From contig NZ_AFPK01000034.1 in NCBI RefSeq assembly GCF_000220525.1, positions 1 to 64,000 on the forward strand: a stretch of 64,000 nt of DNA. The letters run 5' to 3'. Of this stretch, positions 17,440-21,566 are shown one piece after another. The stretch's first letter is position 1, and each line of letters begins with the position of its first letter. The notes below the pieces were generated by a model, which had not been told where the DNA came from, ran no database searches, and was given only the letters and a program-made list of their open reading frames with translations. Made by a program: the position numbers and the translations under genes. This DNA is from Ochrovirga pacifica. GTDB taxonomy: Bacteria > Bacteroidota > Bacteroidia > Flavobacteriales > Flavobacteriaceae.

Positions 17440-18753
17440 ATGAGTTTAGAAACCACTTATGTTCCTTATAAAGTAAAGGATATCTCATTAGCAGAATGGG
17501 GAAGAAAAGAAATTCGTTTGGCCGAAGCAGAAATGCCAGGTTTGATGAGTATCAGAGAAGAATATAAAGGTCAAAAGCCCTTGGCAGGTGCTAGAATTGC
17601 AGGATGTTTGCACATGACAATTCAGACCGCAGTTTTAATAGAAACCTTAGTAGATTTAGGAGCTGAGGTTACCTGGTCTTCTTGTAATATCTTTTCTACT
17701 CAAGATCAGGCAGCTGCTGCCATTGCTGCTGCGGGTATTCCTGTGTATGCTTGGAAAGGGATGAACGAAGAAGAATTTGACTGGTGTATAGAGCAAACTT
17801 TGTTTTTTGGAGAAGACAGAAAACCATTAAACCTAATCTTAGATGATGGGGGAGATTTAACCAATATGGTTTTGGATAAATATCCAGAGTTGGTATCAGA
17901 AATCAAAGGATTGTCTGAAGAAACAACTACAGGAGTACACCGTTTGATAGAAAGAGTAAAAGAAGGTACGTTACCAATGCCAGCAATAAATGTGAACGAT
18001 TCTGTTACCAAATCTAAGTTTGATAACAAATACGGGTGTAAAGAATCTTTGGTAGATGCAATCCGTAGAGCTACAGACGTAATGATGGCTGGTAAAGTAG
18101 CAGTAGTAGCAGGTTATGGTGATGTGGGTAAAGGTTCTGCTGCTTCTTTACGTGGAGCAGGAGCTAGAGTTATTGTTACTGAAATTGATCCTATTTGTGC
18201 ATTGCAGGCAGCAATGGATGGTTTTGCAGTAAAGAAAATGGATGATGCTATTAAGGAGGCTGATATTGTAGTTACTACTACAGGTAATAAAGACATTATT
18301 GTAGGTCGTCATTTTGAGGCATTAAAAGACAAAGCTATAGTGTGTAATATTGGTCACTTTGATAATGAAATCGACATGGCTTGGTTAAACAAAAATTATG
18401 GAGACACCAAGACCGAAATTAAGCCTCAGGTAGATTTGTACAATGTAAAAGGAAATGATGTTATTATTTTAGCAGAAGGACGTTTGGTGAATTTAGGTTG
18501 TGCTACAGGGCATCCAAGTTTTGTAATGTCTAATTCTTTTACCAACCAAACATTGGCTCAGATTGAATTGTGGACCAACGCAGAGGCTTACGGGAACGAT
18601 GTGTATACCTTGCCAAAACATTTAGATGAAAAAGTTGCTCGTTTGCACTTGGCTAAAATTGGTGTAGAGTTAGATACATTAACAGAAGATCAGGCCAAAT
18701 ATATTGGGGTTACTGTAGAGGGACCTTACAAACCTGAATATTATAGGTACTAA
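17440..18753 (+). CDS. ahcY: Adenosylhomocysteinase
   Basis: A 437-residue NAD-dependent enzyme that splits S-adenosylhomocysteine to adenosine and homocysteine in the activated-methyl cycle. The nucleotide-binding motif [13 protein letters not shown] lies at about residue 223. Substrate-site segments include [16 protein letters not shown] near the N-terminus, [13 protein letters not shown] (with the catalytic Lys/Asp region), and a C-terminus ending KPEYYRY that completes the NAD site in the partner subunit of the tetramer. A TAAATTTG box lies at 17405-17412. A strong terminator follows at 18779. Confidence 0.98.
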
Positions 18754-18778
18754 GAAAGTTTTTTAGTAAAAACAATTA

Positions 18779-18810
18779 AAAAGCCTGTACACCACTGTAC
18801 AGGCTTTTTA
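18779..18810 (+). terminator. ahcY terminator
   Basis: AAGCCTGTAC/GTACAGGCTT stem with a 6-nt loop, followed by a T-run. Confidence 0.9.
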
Positions 18811-18843
18811 CATTTACAGGTTTAACGACAGCAATCTATTGGT

Positions 18844-18871
18844 TCGTCTACAGATATTGTTCAATCGTCTA
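18844..18871 (+). promoter_or_regulatory. Direct-repeat operator, unit A (TCGTCTA x2, 21 bp apart)
   Basis: TCGTCTA at 18844-18850 and 18865-18871 have starts exactly 21 bp apart. They lie upstream of a TATTTTTG box (18934-18941). They belong to the same motif family as the sites at 19011-19120 and 20040-20226. Confidence 0.5.
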
Positions 18872-18933
18872 ATAATTAAGCAAAAGGGATGTTTGATGCG
18901 TTAACTTTACAACGTAATTATAAACCAACCCTT

Positions 18934-19000
18934 TATTTTTGAACCTACCTTACAAGCGTTATGTTATATAAAAAGACCCAAGCTTTGCTTGGGTTTTTTT
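18934..19000 (+). ncRNA. Candidate short RNA of about 50 nt (unit A)
   Basis: A TATTTTTG -7 box (18934-18941) without a good -33 element is followed about 35 bp later by a strong terminator, ACCCAAGC/GCTTGGGT plus seven T (18976-19000). The transcript would start near 18947 and hold no convincing gene. It may be a small RNA or an attenuated leader of the glycosyltransferase gene downstream. Confidence 0.4.
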
Positions 19001-19010
19001 ATGCTTACCA

Positions 19011-19120
19011 ACCATTCGTCGAAGCATTTTATCGAACCATTCATCGAGTCTAAAACCCGACAAAAGGTTTTATCGTTTTAAGTTTAATATTGGTCTAAAG
19101 AGGAGGTTGTCTAGTCTAAA
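19011..19120 (+). promoter_or_regulatory. Cluster of CATTCGTCGA/GTCTAAA sites before the glycosyltransferase
   Basis: ACCATTCGTCGA at 19011-19022, CATTTTATCGA at 19025-19035, CATTCATCGA at 19038-19047, then GTCTAAA at 19048-19054, 19093-19099 and 19114-19120. The last two have starts 21 bp apart and end 28 bp before the -7 box at 19149, a position suited to an activator. Confidence 0.5.
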
Positions 19121-19148
19121 AAGCTGAAAAATAGGGTGGTTGCGAACG

Positions 19149-19156
19149 TACCTTTG
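19149..19156 (+). promoter_or_regulatory. -7 box of the glycosyltransferase gene
   Basis: TACCTTTG, 35 bp before the ATG. No TTG is found about 19 nt upstream, so an activator bound at the GTCTAAA repeats may replace the -33 contact. Confidence 0.55.
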
Positions 19157-19190
19157 AAGTGTAATTAGTAACCAACAAACCCTAAATATT

Positions 19191-19958
19191 ATGAAAACTG
19201 GAATCATCATCCCATGCTACAACGAAGCGACAAGATTAAACCAAGAAGCTTTTGTAAACTTTGCAAAGTCTCATGCAGACTACCATGTTTGTTTTGTAAA
19301 CGATGGAAGTGCAGACCATACTTTAGAAGTTTTAGAATCTGTAGCTGCTCAATCACCAGAAAATATTAGTGTAGTCGATGTAAAAATCAACGCAGGAAAA
19401 GCAGCCGCAGTACGAACAGGAGTAAAGGTGTTAAGCCAAGATGATTCTATAGAGTTTATCGGATTTATTGATGCTGATTTAAGTACAGACTTTGAGGACT
19501 TTAAGAGCTTGGTAACTACCTTAAAGAAAAACGACGATTTGACTTTTGTATACGGATCAAGAGGAAAGGGAGAAGGAGAAATCAAAAGAAATTTTTTCCG
19601 CAACGTTTTTTCTAAAATAGTAAAAAGTATTGTTTTCTTAATCTTAGGGTTGCCAATAGAGGATACGCAGTGTGGAGCAAAAGTATTTAGAAAAGAGATT
19701 ATAGGAGTTGCTTATGCAGAGAAATTCTTAACTCGTTGGTTGTTTGATGTAGAGATTTTTATCCGATTAAAAAAATTCTACGGATCTTCGGAGGTAATGC
19801 ATAAAATGCACGAACAACCTTTAACAAGATGGGTGCACATGGACGATTCTAAATTAGGAATGAAAGATGCCATTCAAATTCCATACAAATTACTTAGCAT
19901 TTGGGTTGCATACAGCATCTTAAAACCAACAACATCAGTAGTGTTTTCAGCAAATTAA
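19191..19958 (+). CDS. Family 2 glycosyltransferase (dolichyl-phosphate-sugar synthase-like)
   Basis: A 255-residue GT-A glycosyltransferase. GIIIPCYNEATRL opens the nucleotide-sugar fold, FVNDGSADHT follows, and FIGFIDADLSTDFEDF contains the DxD metal site. FRNVFSKIVKSIVFLILGLPIEDTQCGAKVFRKEI is the acceptor-side segment typical of DPM1/ALG5-like enzymes that load a sugar onto a polyprenyl phosphate. A hydrophobic stretch in that segment and one at the C-terminus suggest membrane association. The gene stands alone between two apparently non-coding units, and all three units carry related direct-repeat operators. Its control is therefore the most unusual thing about it. The sugar donor is unknown. 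Confidence 0.88.
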   Translation: MKTGIIIPCYNEATRLNQEAFVNFAKSHADYHVCFVNDGSADHTLEVLESVAAQSPENISVVDVKINAGKAAAVRTGVKVLSQDDSIEFIGFIDADLSTDFEDFKSLVTTLKKNDDLTFVYGSRGKGEGEIKRNFFRNVFSKIVKSIVFLILGLPIEDTQCGAKVFRKEIIGVAYAEKFLTRWLFDVEIFIRLKKFYGSSEVMHKMHEQPLTRWVHMDDSKLGMKDAIQIPYKLLSIWVAYSILKPTTSVVFSAN

Positions 19959-20003
19959 TTTTTACATAGATCATTCATTTTATTGTTTATTTTTTTTTTT
20001 TGA

Positions 20004-20036
20004 TGCAGGTTCAGGTTTTCTGAATCTGCATTTTTT
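20004..20036 (+). terminator. Terminator of the glycosyltransferase gene
   Basis: TGCAGGTTCAG/CTGAATCTGCA stem (one G-T pair) with a 5-nt loop, followed by nine T. Confidence 0.88.
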
Positions 20037-20039
20037 TTT

Positions 20040-20226
20040 ACCATTCGTCGATGTGAAGTTTTTGTTATGTTTTTACATATTAAATATGTGTTGTAAATTC
20101 TTAGTAGTTGATTTTTAATGAGGAAGCAAATAGGAAGATTGATTTGAGTTAGTTTGTTATTTAATGTTAAAGAAATGTTTAAGCAATATATGAGTTACAT
20201 TCGTCTTATGTTTAGTGTCATTCGTC
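20040..20226 (+). promoter_or_regulatory. CATTCGTC operators of unit C
   Basis: ACCATTCGTCGA at 20040-20051 repeats the 12 bp at 19011 exactly. CATTCGTC at 20198-20205 and again at 20219-20226 form a perfect 8-bp direct repeat with 21-bp spacing, ending 32 bp before a TAAATTTG box (20259-20266). Confidence 0.55.
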
Positions 20227-20272
20227 GAATATTGTACATTTTCATCATACTTTAGTGCTAAATTTGGAGTGT

Positions 20273-20563
20273 AGTTAAACTCTAACACAGAGTAGATATT
20301 ACAAAAGTGAGGCTATCATTGGTAGCTAAACCAGAAAAACAATTTTTTTTAGATAGGGGTATACTTTAAAAATTTGTTCAACGACAGTGATAAATTTTAC
20401 AAATAGACTGCTGTAGGTGGCTTTGTTAAATGAATTTTTTAAAATTAGGGGTAGTGTTAATCAATTCAAATTTAAAAGCTAGTTATAAAAGTAAAAGAGT
20501 AGGTTTATCGCTGTCTCACTTAAAAAAAAAGACTGTTAGAAATTTCTAACAGTCTTTTTAGTA
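20273..20563 (+). ncRNA. Candidate non-coding RNA of about 290 nt (unit C)
   Basis: This stretch runs from just after a TAAATTTG -7 box (20259-20266) to a strong terminator (20527-20560). I found no ATG frame of useful length; the best is a 20-codon GTG frame at about 20309. It lies in the 621-bp gap between the glycosyltransferase and the transketolase subunit and carries the best of the 21-bp direct-repeat operators. A regulatory RNA or an unrecognised small peptide gene is possible. Confidence 0.4.
20527..20560. terminator. Bidirectional terminator before the transketolase subunit gene
   Basis: Near-perfect palindrome: AAAAGACTGTTAGAAA pairs with TTTCTAACAGTCTTTT. It serves the convergent transketolase gene and the unit C transcript. 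Confidence 0.88.
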
Positions 20564-20579
20564 TCAGTTAAGGATTGTT

Positions 20580-21566
20580 TTAAGCTTGTTTTCTTTGTAT
20601 TGCTTTTTGAGCAGCCTCTACAACTGCAGCAGCATTTAATCCGTATTTGTCCATTAATTGAGCAGGAGTTCCAGATTCTCCAAAAGTGTCATTGGTTGCT
20701 ACAAATTCTTGAGGAGCTGGTGTGTTAAGAGCTAATGTTCTAGAAATACTTTCTCCTAAGCCACCTAAGAAGTTGTGTTCTTCAGCAGAAACTACGCATC
20801 CTGTTTTAGCAACAGATTTTAAAATAATTTCTTCATCCAAAGGTTTTATAGTGTGTATGTTGATTATTTCAGCACTAATTCCTTTAGCTTCTAATTCTTC
20901 TGCAGCCAAAAGAGATTCCCAAACCAAATGTCCTGTAGCAACAATGGTTACATCAGTACCTTCGGTCAATCGGATTCCTTTACCAATTTCAAATTTATTT
21001 TCATGTGTGGTATTCGTAAATTTTGGCATAAAAATAGGAACTACAGGTCTACCAAAGCGCAAGTAAACAGGTCCATGGTGTTCTGCAATAGCAATGGTTG
21101 CTGCTTCTGTTTGGTTGTAATCACAAGTGTTGATTACTGTCATACCAGGCAACATTTTCATCAAACCTAAATCTTCTAAAATTTGGTGAGTAGCACCATC
21201 TTCTCCTAACGTTAAACCTGCATGTGAAGCACAGATTTTAACATTTTTGTCAGAGTAGGCGATAGATTGTCTAATTTGATCGTATACACGACCCGTTGAA
21301 AATCCTGCAAAAGTACCAGTAAATGGAATTTTACCTCCAATGGTCATCCCTGCAGCAATACCCATCATGTTTGCTTCAGCAATTCCTATTTGGAAAAATC
21401 TTTCTGGGTTTTCTTTAATAAATTCCCCCATTTTTAAAGATCCAACTAAATCAGCACACAAAGCAACTACATTAGGATTTGTTCTTCCTAAGTGTGCCAA
21501 ACCAGCACCAAAACCTGAACGTGTATCTTTTTTTTCTGTGTAAGTGTATTTTTTCATTTTAGACAT
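20580..21566 (-). CDS. Transketolase, C-terminal subunit
   Basis: A 328-residue half-transketolase holding the pyrimidine-binding and C-terminal domains. The N-terminal part reads DTRSGFGAGLAHLGRTNPNVVALCADL. GIAEANMMGIAAGM contains the conserved Glu that activates thiamine diphosphate, and SHAGLTLGEDGATHQ follows. It would pair with a separate N-terminal subunit to transfer two-carbon units in the pentose phosphate pathway. In most flavobacteria as I know them, that subunit lies directly upstream on the same strand. Here the upstream neighbour is maf, and no N-terminal half is in the window. ATG at 21566 or the ATG three codons later could be used. A TACTTTTG box lies at 21585-21592. Confidence 0.92.
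   Translation of the reverse strand: MSKMKKYTYTEKKDTRSGFGAGLAHLGRTNPNVVALCADLVGSLKMGEFIKENPERFFQIGIAEANMMGIAAGMTIGGKIPFTGTFAGFSTGRVYDQIRQSIAYSDKNVKICASHAGLTLGEDGATHQILEDLGLMKMLPGMTVINTCDYNQTEAATIAIAEHHGPVYLRFGRPVVPIFMPKFTNTTHENKFEIGKGIRLTEGTDVTIVATGHLVWESLLAAEELEAKGISAEIINIHTIKPLDEEIILKSVAKTGCVVSAEEHNFLGGLGESISRTLALNTPAPQEFVATNDTFGESGTPAQLMDKYGLNAAAVVEAAQKAIQRKQA

Follow-up and report, generated by a model that had tools for sequence, protein, structure and literature searches.

In a 64,000-nucleotide stretch of Ochrovirga pacifica DNA (Flavobacteriaceae; NZ_AFPK01000034.1, positions 1 to 64,000 of the forward strand), called the window below, three consecutive predicted transcription units, A, B and C, were found to share an operator-promoter of rigid geometry. 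The genome measures 3.38 Mb in 77 contigs, and the window is part of contig C44. All three units are on the plus strand, between two genes that we take, from their sequences, to be ahcY (17440-18753) and a transketolase-like gene (20580-21566, minus strand). Unit B encodes a family 2 glycosyltransferase (GT2); units A and C have no credible open reading frame (ORF) and look non-coding, as a preliminary description of this DNA had proposed. We consider it probable that the three units are outlying members of a surface regulon controlled by a LytTR protein encoded on another contig, C49.

In each unit, two 8-bp direct repeats of consensus TTCRTCKA start 21 bp apart, with 13 bp between them, and are followed by a −7 box of the form TAnnTTTR; the distance to the start of the box is 59 bp from the start of the first half-site and 38 bp from that of the second (Table 1). 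The operator code reads half-site, 13 bp, half-site, 30 bp, TAnnTTTG. An operator common to the three units had been suggested in the preliminary description, and the 21/59-bp layout is exact in all of them. The repeats listed there (TCGTCTA at 18844 and 18865, GTCTAAA at 19093 and 19114, CATTCGTC at 20198 and 20219) are in place, each pair being 21 bp apart, as are the single sites, ACCATTCGTCGA at 19011 and 20040 and CATTCATCGA at 19038. The operator had been defined by the spacing of the pair, which stands, and the constant 59/38-bp distance to the −7 box had been missed. This changes unit A, which had been given a length of about 50 nt, implying a −7 box TATTTTTG at 18934. We rejected this box, whose 70-bp distance from the second half-site has no counterpart among the other members; the constant 59-bp spacing places the −7 box at 18902-18909 and predicts a transcript of about 80 nt. 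An additional TTCATC is present at 20241-20246, 3′ of the unit C half-sites.

Table 1. Features of the three units and their candidate regulator.
Feature	Position	Strand	Details
Unit A operator	18843..18871	+	TTCGTCTA 18843-18850, ATCGTCTA 18864-18871, 21 bp apart; recovered by window-free model R1
Unit A −7 box	18902..18909	+	TAACTTTA; 59 bp after first half-site start
Unit A predicted transcript, ~80 nt	18914..18997	+	no credible ORF; start inferred from −7 box position
Auxiliary single half-site	19011..19022	+	ACCATTCGTCGA; between unit A terminator and unit B operator
Auxiliary single half-site	19036..19047	+	ACCATTCATCGA; C49 twin has CATTCGTCTA and ACCGTTCATCTA in the matching place
Duplicated block, promoter and gene, 905 bp	19058..19962	+	99.1% identical to C49 copy, 8 differences
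Unit B operator	19090..19118	+	TTGGTCTA 19090-19097, CTAGTCTA 19111-19118
Unit B −7 box	19149..19156	+	TACCTTTG; 59 bp after first half-site start
Family 2 glycosyltransferase, 255 aa	19191..19958	+	PF00535, E 3.2e-21
Glycosyltransferase-unit terminator	20002..20039	+	
Auxiliary single half-site	20040..20051	+	ACCATTCGTCGA; immediately 3′ of glycosyltransferase terminator
Unit C operator	20200..20228	+	TTCGTCTT 20200-20207, TTCGTCGA 20221-20228
Unit C −7 box	20259..20266	+	TAAATTTG; 59 bp after first half-site start
Unit C predicted structured RNA, ~290 nt	20271..20563	+	long hairpin 20383-20515, terminator 20526-20559
LytTR protein	G000:C49:157783-158556		PF04397, 75.6 bits; last gene of operon

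Among 97 distinct promoters in the scanned loci, the distance from first half-site to −7 box, in a tally that allowed 58 to 60 bp only, was 59 bp in 82 cases, 58 bp in 12 and 60 bp in 3. A TTG 20 to 24 nt before the −7 box was present in only 2 of these 97, compared to 6.0% in shuffled spacers. Promoters without a −33 TTG are consistent with activation, in agreement with the earlier proposal that they depend on an activator. The TAnnTTTG box corresponds to −12 to −5 in Flavobacterium psychrophilum (PMC9723704), which would put the half-sites at about −71 and −50. The sequence CATTCGTCGA, with at most one mismatch, was found 5 times in the window for 1.03 expected, a number reached in none of 100 shuffles, and the 12-mer ACCATTCGTCGA has exactly two copies in the genome, both at this locus.

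Conservation of the glycosyltransferase promoter, for which the preliminary description had proposed a comparison with relatives, was evident. Scanning genome contigs with the glycosyltransferase protein gave 80 loci, of which the first 51 (L209-L259) were used and the 29 most distant left out; the nearest named homologues, from Wenyingzhuangia, are 79, 74 and 73% identical. With a matrix made from eight promoters, the three of the window being left out (window-free matrix), an operator-promoter scoring at least 16 within 250 bp upstream was found at 47 of the 51 loci, several of which are near relatives of one another, and at 45 of 49 without the training loci L212 and L230. Mononucleotide-shuffled upstream regions yielded 1 positive out of 1,071. 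The first half-site was placed 90 to 93 bp before the match start in 46 of the 47 loci, and 101 bp in the other (L250). No operator-promoter reached 16 at L209, L233, L240 and L257, and a weaker version is visible by eye at L209. In a matrix-free count, an exact TTCRTCKA was followed by TAnnTTTR at 59 bp 26 times, the mean over 110 distances being 0.47 per distance.

The genome was also scanned for repeat pairs and their downstream genes, as had been suggested, and the full layout was found before an adhesin gene (C7), a surface protein gene (C13) and an H-NOX operon (C49), and likewise before the glycosyltransferase of three relatives. Six promoters of this layout, none in the window and two from this genome, served to build R1, a model based on sequence only, which was run against the whole genome with 150 of 3,824 candidates scored. 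After the two own-genome seeds, it ranked the C13 site (E 2.4×10−5), the C49 twin of the glycosyltransferase promoter (0.028), then units B (0.041), A (0.068) and C (0.17); the next place, at 0.24, is inside an ORF. The window-free matrix gave 25.7 for A, 26.8 for B and 28.9 for C, and 13.5 for the next place in the window. When the window promoters were included in the matrix, no match of 18 or more was obtained in ten first-order resamplings of the window. A third matrix, made from 66 distinct promoters of relatives (relatives' matrix), scored A at 23.6 and C at 28.2, and gave no match of at least 16 in 400 kb of genome (20 stretches of C52, C34 and C65; best 15.6). At the listing level of at least 12, neither the window-free matrix nor the one including the window promoters returned an operator-promoter at the single site at 19011.

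The search for a LytTR regulator, the type of protein named as a candidate in the preliminary description, led to the C49 protein of Table 1, and the candidate gained support from sequence: its gene closes an operator-bearing operon encoding REC, H-NOX, PAS histidine kinase, FIST protein, second kinase, HPt and LytTR, the latter being the only DNA-binding domain detected there by Pfam. The operator is present upstream of the LytTR operon here and in four relatives (G032, G014, G001 and G019; G and L numbers are our labels for genomes and loci), and in weaker form in G034. Ten relatives (G032, G036, G026, G014, G001, G034, G019, G005, G010, G008) have the motif before several units of a cluster that joins the same signalling set (REC, H-NOX, PAS kinase, FIST, second kinase, HPt, LytTR) to a polysaccharide part (TPR, STAS, flippase, GT4, a 1027-aa membrane protein, a glycoside-hydrolase-like protein and GT2) and also holds surface proteins of the type IX secretion system (T9SS). 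Cluster content varies, in that not all genes are found in every cluster and not all units have the motif.

Co-occurrence of the motif with a C49-type LytTR was measured in 56 genomes, without training members, the motif search scoring 79 candidates per genome. LytTR presence was scored by hand, as at least 59% identity overall or at least 64% over the DNA-binding half; among edge cases G038 was counted, and G059 (47%), G003 (41%) and G033 (39%) were not. At E≤0.025, both were present in 12 genomes, the motif alone in 2, the LytTR alone in 1 and neither in 41 (Fisher 2×10−9). The corresponding numbers were 8, 1, 5 and 42 at E≤0.01 (p 7×10−6), and 12, 20, 1 and 23 at E≤0.1 (p 0.003). On these comparisons, control of the operator by a LytTR protein is well supported.

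The operator resembles the sites of known LytTR proteins, a group to which RgaR, VirR and AlgR belong. Canonical sites are pairs of 9-bp direct repeats 10 to 13 bp apart (PMC11347149); in our three units, 8-bp repeats with 13 bp between them lie just upstream of the −35/−33 position, with a centre near −60 if transcription starts where the −7 box predicts. The AgrA repeats also centre near −60, and AgrA drives RNAIII (PMC4227749); critical bases for RgaR of C. difficile are at −72 and −51 of a small RNA promoter (PMC10602386), that is 21 bp apart as here; VirR drives three regulatory RNAs, VR-RNA being among these outputs (PMC2838878). These activators (of RNAIII, VR-RNA and, for RgaR, SpoZ) thus share with our units direct-repeat sites just upstream of the promoter, and the Firmicutes sites also drive regulatory RNAs. 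They differ in belonging to Firmicutes and in having another promoter type and another sensor, and the RNAs of units A and C are only predicted. In AlgZR of Pseudomonas aeruginosa, AlgR is, like the regulator proposed here, a response regulator of exopolysaccharide genes, and its site CCGTTCGTC is one base apart from CCATTCGTC found here (PMC4064291). The AlgR sites at algD are at −470, −394 and, reversed, −45, whereas here a single rigid pair is placed 38 bp before a Bacteroidota −7 box. RcoM1 has 8-bp direct repeats, TTCNNGCA, 12 to 13 bp apart and in threes (PMC11347149), and three phased half-sites are likewise seen upstream of the G010 glycosyltransferase. However, RcoM1 and CoxC are single proteins sensing carbon monoxide, in contrast to a separate H-NOX with a kinase/HPt relay; CoxC, moreover, acts as a repressor, unlike the activator proposed here. 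Given this match in repeats, spacing and position, there is a strong case that the operator works like a LytTR operator.

The operator, its spacing, the conservation of the glycosyltransferase promoter, the gene context and the co-occurrence are established at the level of sequence, and from them we infer LytTR binding and activation. A LytTR response regulator would bind both 8-bp repeats (at about −71 and −50, upstream of the −33 position), which share one face of the helix, and would recruit RNA polymerase to promoters having only the flavobacterial −7 box. The LytTR of the C49 operon is the likeliest regulator and, as this operon carries the operator, would be autoregulated. The output would be surface polysaccharide and secreted surface proteins, and in the window the operator would drive a second copy of the glycosyltransferase, affecting dosage, together with two short flanking transcripts. 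As for the signal, a phosphorelay starting from H-NOX, and therefore a gas (nitric oxide, NO) signal, is plausible. The H-NOX protein matches PF07700 (HNOB) with 127 bits and its gene adjoins a kinase gene. The YxSxR motif, of known role in H-NOX proteins, is present in 6 of 7 sequences, those of all 6 relatives, and reads YKSDK in this genome. A NosP label for the FIST protein was rejected (52.5 bits, for an NCBIfam cut-off of 450). H-NOX proteins of Shewanella and Vibrio also work with kinases and in a transcriptional feedback loop (HnoC); outputs described for them include a diguanylate cyclase, HnoC and quorum sensing, and LytTR goes unmentioned in that review (PMC8738867). NO is proposed to act directly on AgrA cysteines (PMC6769237), and by analogy it could act directly on a LytTR protein. 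In the open-access literature we found no description of H-NOX with LytTR in Bacteroidetes, nor of exopolysaccharide control by LytTR direct repeats in flavobacteria, although an earlier description is possible; the papers found on LytTR regulons in Bacteroidetes concern, judged by their titles and the opening of their abstracts, other matters.

Unit B is itself duplicated. Its protein is identical to that of a copy at G000:C49:146282-147046, and the duplicated block takes in the gene and 133 bp upstream. Both copies are flanked by extra half-sites immediately beyond the block. All 6 coding differences between them are at synonymous third positions, so that both copies look maintained. The divergent neighbour of the C49 copy is also that of the glycosyltransferases of W. 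marina, W. gilva, Wenyingzhuangia sp. 2_MG-2023, G019, G005 and G010; the window gene is therefore most likely the derived second copy. A search of a plasmid collection gave no match. In several relatives (L020-L028, e.g. L022:1111-2220), the glycosyltransferase carries a fused response-regulator receiver domain at its N-terminus, as judged by Pfam for L022 and, elsewhere, by REC and GT2 matches within one ORF. This suggests direct phospho-control of the enzyme.

Around the units, at 18700-20700, 4 terminator-like sites were counted for 0.7 expected; in the terminator listing, the sites of units A and C appear as minus-strand ones, and their plus-strand hairpins and T runs were seen separately. 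Unit A ends with a hairpin at 18976-18994 (z −2.4) followed by a T run, and its first ORF of at least 22 aa runs through this terminator. In unit C, a 39-aa ORF ends inside the terminator. The unit C fold has a z of −8.2 as a whole and −5.9 without the terminator (0 of 200 shuffles each), while the opposite strand is ordinary (z −1.3). A strong fold on one strand only points to selection on the unit C RNA. With a cheaper folding method the z was −4.8, and 100 other 251-nt stretches of the window went no lower than −3.7. No Rfam family matched units A and C at gathering score. The best of 13 sub-threshold matches, to the Vibrio small RNA MicX (27.9 bits for 75 required, E 0.0011), spans the ahcY terminator and unit A, and was discarded. 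Among the 97 distinct promoters, 11 have a first ORF of 22 to 74 aa, units A and C included, some of these ORFs merely preceding a long gene. In W. marina and W. gilva, a promoter of the same type stands right behind the glycosyltransferase, followed by 264 and 255 nt, respectively, and then by a 64-aa ORF; one of the two leaders is structured (z −5.3). The 64-aa peptide (L210:7183-7377; same place in L232) has a signal-like start, a polyproline stretch and a C-terminal helix with KLKK, and resembles a PEP/PID-CTERM sorting peptide; no Pfam match was obtained for L210.

We now weigh these proposals against their alternatives. That the repeats and spacings arose by chance in AT-rich intergenic DNA seems very improbable to us. 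The half-sites are short and degenerate, and pairs alone, tried as a genome test, had to be given up: loose TTCRTC pairs at 20 to 22 bp numbered 17 genome-wide, compared to 27 for the reversed pattern, with no enrichment. The preliminary description had named motif pairs scattered through coding regions as an argument against it, and this holds for loose pairs, 12 of the 17 being inside ORFs of at least 100 aa; the five others are at unit C (two overlapping), the C7 adhesin, the C49 H-NOX operon and a C13 kinase promoter. As loose pairs are not enriched, the test has to include the −7 spacing, and the pair with a −7 box at 59 bp is absent from the 400-kb sample but found at 47 of 51 orthologous genes. 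The identity of the regulator is less secure, and here several observations weigh against assigning the units to the C49 LytTR. R1 gave A, B and C single-site E-values of only 0.04 to 0.17, and since it scored only part of its candidates it provides a ranking rather than a full list, so that the regulon list is incomplete. The relatives' matrix lists neither unit B, nor GT4, nor the DUF4114 gene of C44 at 14 or above. In the co-occurrence test, twenty genomes have the motif only at E≤0.1, and at E≤0.025 G018 has the LytTR without the motif, and G003 and G037 the motif without an orthologue. The H-NOX is missing from the G005 cluster, and both FIST and the second kinase from those of G032, G034, G019 and G005, among the clusters read, so that the signal may not be NO; G034 also has a different polysaccharide set. 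Five further LytTR genes are found in the genome, six in all, and the operator might be a LytTR-type site read by another of them, or by several, the likeliest being that of a kinase-LytTR pair on C13. This pair lies less than 2 kb from a motif-bearing surface protein gene and a motif-bearing small peptide gene, and the DNA upstream of it (L093:11951, minus strand) reads TTCATCAA-21-TTCATCAT-38-TTATTTTG, a weak version of the operator, which may point to cross-talk or autoregulation. However, the cluster LytTR of G014 and G019 is directly followed by a gene that has a motif of its own and encodes a homologue of the C13 surface protein (G005 has a weaker, DUF4114-type homologue there), the presence of the motif follows that of the C49-type LytTR across genera, and with the relatives' matrix the C13 kinase promoter stays below 14. 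We therefore hold the C13 pair, or another LytTR of this genome, to be rather unlikely as the reader of the operator, and keep the C49 protein as the preferred one.

Whether units A and C would be made and act as RNAs, as their sequences suggest, is a more balanced matter. There is nearly an even chance that they are not RNA genes, A serving the glycosyltransferase as an upstream promoter with attenuator, and C being a promoter whose gene was lost. The unit in the same position in W. marina and W. gilva continues into the 64-aa membrane peptide, which was not found in this genome, making gene loss behind a surviving promoter a fair rival for unit C. Unit C is moreover without homologue in 397 family genomes, searched by DNA and by a single-sequence covariance model of the long hairpin, with few candidates scored per genome and at most 8 per genome for the covariance model; the DNA search gave 34 short matches, spread over 27 other genomes, and 15 of these fall on the terminator hairpin. 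Unit A matched its own locus only, in a search covering this genome and 316 loci (2.46 Mb), the 397 family genomes not being searched for it. The other Wenyingzhuangia leader, that of W. marina, has no excess folding (z −0.41), and pairing of units A and C with translation starts of the regulon was unremarkable (best ranks 27 and 23 of 291). On the other side, both units end in hairpin terminators, and the unit C fold is strand-specific and well beyond shuffles with either folding method. The fullest reading, in which a gas-responsive H-NOX/HPt/LytTR phosphorelay of Flavobacteriaceae would control surface polysaccharide and adhesins and, in this lineage, also a new, strongly structured regulatory RNA C (~290 nt) and an RNA A (~80 nt) on either side of the duplicated glycosyltransferase, as a Bacteroidota counterpart of AgrA-RNAIII and VirR-VR-RNA, is a doubtful one.

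Other operator sites of the genome precede genes for a choice-of-anchor-A adhesin (C7), a DUF6923 surface protein (C13) and GT4 (C49). A further promoter, at L187:8845 (C44, about 84845), lies 65 kb from the locus before a DUF4114 T9SS protein (window-free matrix 23.6), and a DUF4114 protein is also encoded behind the cluster LytTR in L181. On C13, a second operator-promoter (L093:8250-8790, minus strand), upstream of the surface gene, leads into a 35-aa peptide gene with its own terminator. This peptide is a single membrane helix by its sequence, and like peptides are encoded behind the cluster LytTR in G026 and G001 (L172 and L175; 37 and 38 aa). Motif matches outside recognised polysaccharide clusters were noted at L186:9731 and L182:10159 (minus strands; G003 and G038), the G038 match preceding a run of 231- to 239-aa proteins.

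The operator code can be used to find the surface-polysaccharide regulon across marine flavobacteria, and it ties this regulon to a candidate gas-sensing relay. Should units A and C prove functional, the control of regulatory RNAs by LytTR proteins, known from Firmicutes, would extend to Bacteroidota.

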